Assembly (NCBI GenBank): GCA_945889495.1
Contig: CAMDBU010000016.1
Coordinates: forward strand, 1 to 58,200
DNA: 58,200 nt
Direction of reading: 5' to 3'
Source: Syntrophobacter sp. SbD2
GTDB taxonomy: Bacteria > Desulfobacterota > Binatia > UBA9968
Position numbers and translations under genes: made by a program
In this document: positions 2,463-56,797 of the stretch, one piece after another
Position numbering within the stretch: position 1 is the stretch's first letter
Layout of the letters: the number at the start of each line of letters is the position of its first letter
Notes under the pieces: generated by a model
Databases searched by the model: none
Seen by the model: only the letters and a program-made list of their open reading frames with translations
What the model was told of the DNA's origin: nothing

Positions 2463-2566
2463 TATTCCTGATCTCGGCCGGATTATTGAAAAGCCGTCTT
2501 GATTGGGTATATTGACTCGGTCGTCGGTTCACGGCGATAAATTCTACGGAAAGAGGAAAAAGCATC

Positions 2567-3037
2567 ATGATTGAAGTCGGCAAACAAGCGCCTGATTTCG
2601 AACTGGTCAGCCATTTGGCTGGCACCAAGTTCACCTTGAATCAGTTCAAGGGGCAAAAAAATGTCATGTTGGTGTTCTATCCCCTGGATTGGACGCCGAC
2701 TTGAAGCAAGGAGGTCCCGGGACTCGAAGCTCTGAAGAGCGAGTTCCAGGCCTGTGACACCCAAGTGTTGGGTGTGAGCATCGATAGCAGATTTTCCCAT
2801 GACAACTGGGCGAAGTCTTTGGGCGGGGTGTCGTTCCCGCTCTTACAGGATTTCCATCCGAAGGGCGCCATGGCTGGGCAGTACGGCGCGTTCTTGGCGG
2901 AAAAGGGCATCACCGATCGCGCCACCGTGATCGTCGACAAGGCGGGCGTGGTGCGCTACGCGGTTTCCGTCGGCCCGGCCAGCGAGCGCAACCCGAAGGA
3001 TCTCTTGGCTGAGTGCCAGAAGGTCAGCAAGGGTTAG
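2567..3037 (+). CDS. Peroxiredoxin with in-frame TGA at the peroxidatic position (predicted selenoprotein)
   Basis: Reading from ATG 2567 (GAGG Shine-Dalgarno at 2553-2556) gives 156 residues with one TGA at codon 46 (2702-2704) and then an uninterrupted frame to TAG at 3037. The TGA falls exactly at the peroxidatic residue of the peroxiredoxin motif P-x3-T-x2-C, here FYPLDWTPT followed by TGA then SKEVPGLE. The rest is a normal thioredoxin-fold peroxiredoxin of BCP/AhpE size: N-terminal VGKQAPDFEL, then VLGVSIDS, SFPLLQDF and ATVIVDKAGVVRYA. Cys63 and Cys150 are the remaining cysteines and could act as resolving residues. A hairpin lies where a bacterial SECIS would be. Selenocysteine at this site is known for some peroxiredoxins. 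The alternatives are a TGC/TGT to TGA nonsense mutation or a sequence error. No sel genes are visible here. Confidence 0.85.
2720..2747 (+). promoter_or_regulatory. Candidate bacterial SECIS hairpin in the peroxiredoxin mRNA
   Basis: Sixteen bases after the TGA, the sequence can fold as an outer stem GGACTC (2720-2725) with GAG-TCC (2741-2747, one bulged U) and an inner stem GCTC/GAGC (2729-2732 with 2737-2740) closing a UGAA loop (2733-2736). The loop has a G within its first two bases and lies about 28 bases from the TGA. Both features agree with the loose bacterial SECIS description I know. The fold was drawn by eye. Confidence 0.6.
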
Positions 3038-3175: not shown

Positions 3176-3415
3176 ATGACGATGGAACTTTACTTCTACA
3201 ACGAATGCGGATTTTCCCAGAGCGTGCTCAACTGCATGACCAATCTTCACTGCGAAGATAAGATCGTCAAGAAGAACATCCGGGAAAAAGCCGAAAACGA
3301 AACCGAGTTGATTCAACTGACCGGCGCCAAGACCGTGCCGGTCTTGATCGTCGACGGCAAGCCGATCAAAGGCTCCGAGGAGATCAATCAGTTTCTCGTC
3401 GGTAAGTTCATGTAG
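3176..3415 (+). CDS. Glutaredoxin-like protein with CGFS motif
   Basis: A 79-residue thioredoxin-fold protein. The N-terminal strand MELYFYNE leads to CGFS, the active-site signature of monothiol glutaredoxins, at residues 11-14. A further Cys20 and Cys26 follow, then the cis-proline motif TVPVLIVDG and GSEEINQFL near the end. It is shorter than typical CGFS Grx4/GrxD and closer to small NrdH/Grx-like proteins, so an Fe-S carrier role should not be assumed from the motif alone. Its position just downstream of the TGA-containing peroxiredoxin suggests a redox pair in which it reduces the peroxiredoxin; this is inferred from context. Starts at 3176 and 3182 are both possible; an upstream ATG at 3149 has no strong support. 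Confidence 0.8.
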   Translation: MTMELYFYNECGFSQSVLNCMTNLHCEDKIVKKNIREKAENETELIQLTGAKTVPVLIVDGKPIKGSEEINQFLVGKFM

Positions 3416-46632: not shown

Positions 46633-46667
46633 TTCTCTCTTTCAGGCGCCAAGACGCAAAGGTTAGG
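46633..46667. repeat. Single arm of family 1 repeat
   Basis: TCTCTTTCAGGCGCCAAGAC followed by GCAAAGGTTAG resembles the left arm of the family 1 inverted repeats, but no matching right arm follows. Confidence 0.5.
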
Positions 46668-56761: not shown

Positions 56762-56797
56762 TTCTCCCGCAAAGGCGCAAAGGCGCTAAGTTCGGAA
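56762..56797. repeat. Single arm of family 1 repeat
   Basis: TTCTCCCGCAAAGGCGCAAA, then GGCGCTAAGTTCGG, matches the left arm of the family 1 elements at 175, 1506 and 2376. No facing arm is seen before the APC gene begins. Confidence 0.6.

Follow-up and report, generated by a model that had tools for sequence, protein, structure and literature searches.

An AhpE-like peroxiredoxin gene with an in-frame TGA at its peroxidatic codon, and its glutaredoxin-like neighbor, in Syntrophobacter sp. SbD2

Can a peroxiredoxin gene that is interrupted by TGA at the very codon of its peroxidatic cysteine be a working gene and, if it is, what returns its product to the reduced state? The question is raised by a locus near the start of contig CAMDBU010000016.1 from Syntrophobacter sp. 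SbD2. We analyzed the first 58 200 nucleotides of this contig as a single stretch, referred to here as ‘the window’, together with the rest of the host genome (5.64 Mb in 239 contigs, 95.62% complete; designated G000) and related loci in other genomes. With high confidence, we regard the gene as a working selenoprotein gene encoding a selenocysteine (Sec) peroxiredoxin, a judgment that leaves the electron donor aside. Sec insertion and peroxidase activity are what we infer for it from the comparisons described below.

The features of the locus are collected in Table 1. The preliminary description of this DNA placed the TGA exactly at the Cys of a P-x3-T-x2-C motif, in a frame that is open on both sides and runs to a normal stop, and on both points it was right. 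The TGA is the sole break in the 156-codon frame (2567–3037, + strand). It is codon 46, and the residues leading up to it, Y-P-L-D-W-T-P-T-U, spell out the motif. When U is written as C, the Pfam AhpC-TSA match spans the TGA (residues 4–131; 6.8e-35). Thirty-six frames in the window meet loose read-through criteria; we judge the peroxiredoxin to be the one convincing case among them, by its motif and by its Pfam match, the Pfam scan having covered this frame only. From the whole of the frame, the mechanical list of open reading frames (at least 80 amino acids) holds only 2765–3037, a stretch of 90 amino acids with a GTG start and the same truncated fragment that had been foreseen for standard gene callers. 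The list clips the gene in this way, and the same is to be expected of any caller for which TGA is a stop, so that this enzyme, like its relatives, can easily go unnoticed.

Table 1. Positions of the features of the peroxiredoxin locus within the window
Feature	Position	Strand	Remarks
AGAGGA, probable ribosome-binding site of the peroxiredoxin gene	2552..2557	+	read from the sequence
Sec-peroxiredoxin gene, AhpE-like	2567..3037	+	ATG at 2567 to TAG at 3037; 156 residues
TGA at codon 46, the peroxidatic-cysteine position; read as selenocysteine	2702..2704	+	P39-x3-T43-x2-U46
SECIS-like folding stretch 3' of the UGA	2705..2756	+	the bounds mark the stretch that was folded and do not delimit an element
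Glutaredoxin-like gene, probable peroxiredoxin partner	3176..3415	+	79 residues; C11-x-x-S14; Pfam Glutaredoxin

Upstream of the gene, a sigma-70-like site at 2486–2513 is at chance level (1 found versus 0.5 expected). A dispersed, intergenic-looking repeat, CGCAAAGGCGCAAAG, lies at 180–292, 1512–1629, 2381–2457, 46647–46661 and 56768–56790 of the window. It has 14 matches at up to two mismatches, versus 0.47 expected, and its copies often face one another. The genome has 382 copies of CGCAAAGNCGCNAAG and none of its reversed control. At positions 356–1471 of the window, a response-regulator receiver domain is combined with an adenylate/guanylate cyclase domain.

Relatives of the peroxiredoxin were found at an E-value of 1e-20 or better in 87 of 297 genomes of the phylum, and a search of the class found relatives in 64 of 148. 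All 11 of the internal-TGA rows among the phylum-search matches listed have the codon at TxxU, and U occupies this position in each of the 29 new loci fetched from the higher-ranking rows of the class search. In a quickly built tree with several long branches, the window gene belongs to a clade of 13 members from 13 genomes (SH-aLRT 98); the tree took 91 of 140 rows, namely all 40 Sec loci, those Cys loci that came from the first search and one in three of the Cys loci from the pattern search. Besides the query, the clade comprises members from eight genomes that share its genus or family (70–93% identity) and the loci L162, L163, L164 and L022 (54–61%). Across this span, 54–93% identity to the query, the TGA at TxxU is kept in all 13. 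Among the nine closest orthologs, purifying selection is strong on both sides of the codon (median dN/dS 0.035 before it and 0.087 after), and mean synonymous differences per site are 0.655 before and 0.674 after. Plasmid records with a match number 318, all of them below 60% identity. The host genome also holds a second TxxU peroxiredoxin with a TGA (L051, 996–1472 of contig C30), which has a counterpart, L053, in genome G198. A separate group of Sec-peroxiredoxins, with the motif FTGGU, is made up of 17 loci (L041 and L167–L182) from the same family or order.

A selenoprotein requires a host that can make and insert Sec, and the preliminary description had staked its reading on the presence of selB and selC. 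The host genome has selB and a tRNA-Sec, and selA and selD as well. The tRNA scores 73.1 bits, above the Rfam cut-off, and is called by ARAGORN as tRNA-SeC with anticodon tca. The three proteins score above the curated cut-offs (selA 614 bits, selB 411 bits and selD 377 bits), and their genes lie in the order selA, selB, selD on one strand of contig C26. The selD frame (L018, about 1500–2530) contains one in-frame TGA near its start, within K-S-A-G-U-A-A-K, which we take to be the catalytic Cys or Sec site of SelD; the SelD of this organism is thus probably a selenoprotein too. Of the 40 genomes with TGA relatives that were tested for selA (8 from the phylum search and 32 from the class search; G418, G422 and G425 are known from rows only), 38 have it. 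This agreement is weak and non-discriminating evidence, since selA is carried by 269 of the 297 phylum genomes. No selA match was found in the remaining two, G198 (source of L041 and L053) and G424 (source of L157). Genus mates of these two (G421, G422, G423, G425 and G426) have the gene, and so assembly gaps, with selA on missing contigs, are the likely explanation, real loss being the other. Seven genomes were tested for selB; six had it above the cut-off, and G198 did not. No tRNA-Sec was found in G077, where 150 of the 1357 candidates were scored, or in G198, where 150 of the 473 were, and these misses mean little.

Other readings of the TGA have to be set against this evidence. TGA is one base away from a Cys codon, and an error of sequencing or assembly could have made an ordinary Cys peroxiredoxin look like this gene. 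The presence of the TGA in 12 other clade genomes, at 54–93% identity, makes a base error very unlikely, and synonymous differences of about 0.65–0.67 per site in the nine orthologs mean that the shared TGAs are not copies of one mistake; we give this explanation almost no credence. The gene might instead be a pseudogene, or the TGA a true stop, with a peptide of 45 residues or the 90-residue fragment as the product; a GTG-started open reading frame for the latter does exist, from 2765. Neither sits well with dN/dS values as low as those on the two sides of the codon, nor with a sole interruption that falls at the one codon expected for Sec, nor with four relatives that continue in frame past the TGA into a glutaredoxin-like domain. 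This too is highly improbable, if by a hair less so than an error. The frame would be open with any residue at the TGA, as it would be in an organism with a changed genetic code that generally reads TGA as an amino acid other than Sec. Against this, tRNA-Sec, selA, selB and selD are all in the genome; the frames recovered for SelA and SelB are free of internal stops and that of SelD has a single TGA; and ordinary genes of the window, such as 1494–2357, stop at TGA. A changed code is consequently as hard to credit as a base error. That the gene is a probable selenoprotein, as originally proposed, is now backed by the conserved TGA of the clade, by selection on both sides of it and by the Sec machinery of the genome.

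The RNA just 3' of the UGA has also been examined for a bacterial SECIS, a check that the preliminary description had proposed. The comparison sets derive from 67 fetched loci, consisting of best hits and of loci fetched partly for having a TGA; one, L027, was dropped because its motif missed the search pattern, and the sets are thus of 40 Sec loci and 26 Cys loci. Over the 52 bases that follow the codon, the mean z-score against dinucleotide shuffles is −2.12 in the Sec loci versus +0.17 in the Cys loci, and against synonymous-codon shuffles −1.74 versus −0.07. In the synonymous shuffles, p is at or below 0.05 for 19 of 40 Sec loci versus 2 of 26 Cys loci (Mann–Whitney 3.9e-7, relatedness ignored). 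For the Sec genes as a group the signal is strong and supports a SECIS. For the gene in the window taken alone it is modest and the support weak: z is −2.18 with dinucleotide shuffles, −1.55 (p 0.07) with synonymous shuffles and −0.87 for a shorter stretch. At minimum energy this gene's RNA folds with UGAA as the apical loop, several orthologs have no G in that loop, and a strict hairpin score that requires G at the start of the loop gives p 0.59 for the window gene. RNAalifold found no structure shared by the nine orthologs. A SECIS 3' of the window UGA is likely, its exact form not being pinned down by these folds. For the FTGGU group, 14 of its 17 rows yielded a 7-pair hairpin, in which one pair has changes on both sides. 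The Rfam model RF00031 has no match in the host genome or in 14 control genomes; we take this model to be the eukaryotic SECIS family, which makes its null result uninformative for the window gene.

What kind of peroxiredoxin is encoded? The fold is predicted with a mean pLDDT of 95.9 and places residue 46 near the start of a helix (44–55). Its best fold match is 4x0x_B, AhpE of Mycobacterium tuberculosis (TM 0.94 by query length; 36% identity), and AhpE (Rv2238c) is also the best PDB sequence match. AhpE has Cys where the window protein would have Sec. Alignment with homologs, one of the checks originally proposed, puts Cys at position 46 in 22 homologs and TGA there in all 13 members of the clade. 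In the alignment with the 22, P39, T43, position 46 and R118 are invariant; these homologs were collected with a pattern that holds T43 and position 46, so those two are invariant partly by construction, and R118 lies outside the pattern. The pattern ended in Cys and could return Cys relatives only, never Sec forms. No Cys residue of the peroxiredoxin is common to all 13 clade members, and there is therefore no universal resolving Cys; a Cys at 149/150 occurs in 10 of the 13. Being closest to AhpE and having no conserved resolving Cys, the protein belongs with the AhpE-like, one-Cys type. The NCBI model for PrxU, NF040737, gives it 78.9 bits, below the curated cut-off of 270. A Sec form that passes this model is L057 (1034–1633; genome G044), at 367 bits.

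The preliminary description covered the peroxiredoxin only, and the gene that follows is an addition to it. This gene starts 138 bases past the peroxiredoxin gene on the same strand, and its product scores 29.4 bits with Pfam Glutaredoxin (cut-off 22.9). It also passes GST_N_3 (25.3 versus 22), GST_N_2 (25.3 versus 25) and GST_N (21 versus 20.9), and reaches 21 bits with TIGR00365, the Grx4 monothiol family, below the cut-off of 117.1. A glutaredoxin-like gene adjoins the Sec-peroxiredoxin gene in eight of the nine closest loci. The exception is L161, which has no such neighbor and in which, by eye, a stem and a T-run follow the peroxiredoxin gene. In all four of the others (L162, L163, L164 and L022), a glutaredoxin-like domain is fused in frame to the peroxiredoxin, with a single internal TGA. 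Every one of the 12 partner copies has C-x-x-S, and C11 is the sole invariant Cys in the eight of them that were aligned. By its sequence, then, the partner appears to be of the monothiol CxxS kind, with a single conserved Cys.

Peroxiredoxins with Sec at TxxU are an established family (PMC1794560, PMC1088965, PMC2398784 and PMC13188914, portions of each), in keeping with the statement in the preliminary description that Sec replaces this Cys in some bacterial peroxiredoxins, and a Sec-peroxiredoxin from Eubacterium acidaminophilum is cited in the reference list of PMC9312934, in the portion available. The window protein resembles this family in its AhpC-TSA fold, its predicted Sec within PxxxTxxU, its in-frame UGA and the Sec machinery of its genome; it differs in falling short of the PrxU cut-off and in being accompanied by a CxxS glutaredoxin-like gene. 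Peroxiredoxin–glutaredoxin fusions of proteobacteria, like the four fused loci, have both domains in one chain. In those fusions the glutaredoxin is of the CPYC class (PMC2679010, in the portions covered), whereas the clade has CxxS together with Sec, and the window has two separate genes. Sec-peroxiredoxin has likewise been found joined to a second domain in a fusion with a PP2C-type phosphatase (PMC2398784), but there the partner is not a glutaredoxin, and the portions of that paper covered name no glutaredoxin fusion. Among the matches listed in a search of open-access titles and abstract openings, no Sec-peroxiredoxin with a glutaredoxin partner was recognized, which is weak evidence of absence. 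The Sec-peroxiredoxin core is therefore a new member of a kind already known; what novelty there is lies in the paired or fused CxxS partner.

With selenocysteine as our reading of the codon, SelB and tRNA-Sec would decode the UGA, aided by the RNA fold just downstream, and the product would be an AhpE-like peroxiredoxin in which Sec replaces the peroxidatic Cys. The selenolate would attack a hydroperoxide and become a selenenic acid, and the neighboring CxxS glutaredoxin-like protein would probably regenerate the enzyme, with or without a small thiol. We cast the partner in this role because AhpE, the closest solved relative, is a one-Cys peroxiredoxin whose reductant is a glutaredoxin homolog, Mrx1 (PMC4360819, in the portions covered). 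By this analogy, and given the in-frame fusion in four genomes and the adjacency in eight of nine loci, we lean toward the partner as electron donor of the oxidized selenoenzyme. The lean is a moderate one. The selenoprotein could be real and draw its electrons from thioredoxin, from a small thiol or through its own Cys at 149/150, leaving the neighbor to some other redox or Fe–S role. That Cys could resolve the enzyme in the 10 members that have it, L161 manages with no glutaredoxin-like neighbor, and with the Grx4 monothiol model the neighbor falls far short of the cut-off; class II glutaredoxins, moreover, typically bind Fe–S and are inactive as oxidoreductases (PMC7138851, in the portions covered). 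We hold a reductant other than the partner to be a serious possibility, and the less probable of the two.

Whether this clade forms a distinct lineage, an AhpE-like, one-Sec peroxiredoxin with a CxxS glutaredoxin-like reductase of its own, encoded by adjacent genes in one family and fused in others, is to our minds evenly balanced. If it does, the lineage would amount to a selenoperoxidase complete in itself, for which thioredoxin need not be required. The conserved partner offers a testable idea of how a peroxiredoxin with no universal resolving cysteine may be recycled, and the natural fusions provide a one-chain construct with which that idea could be tested.
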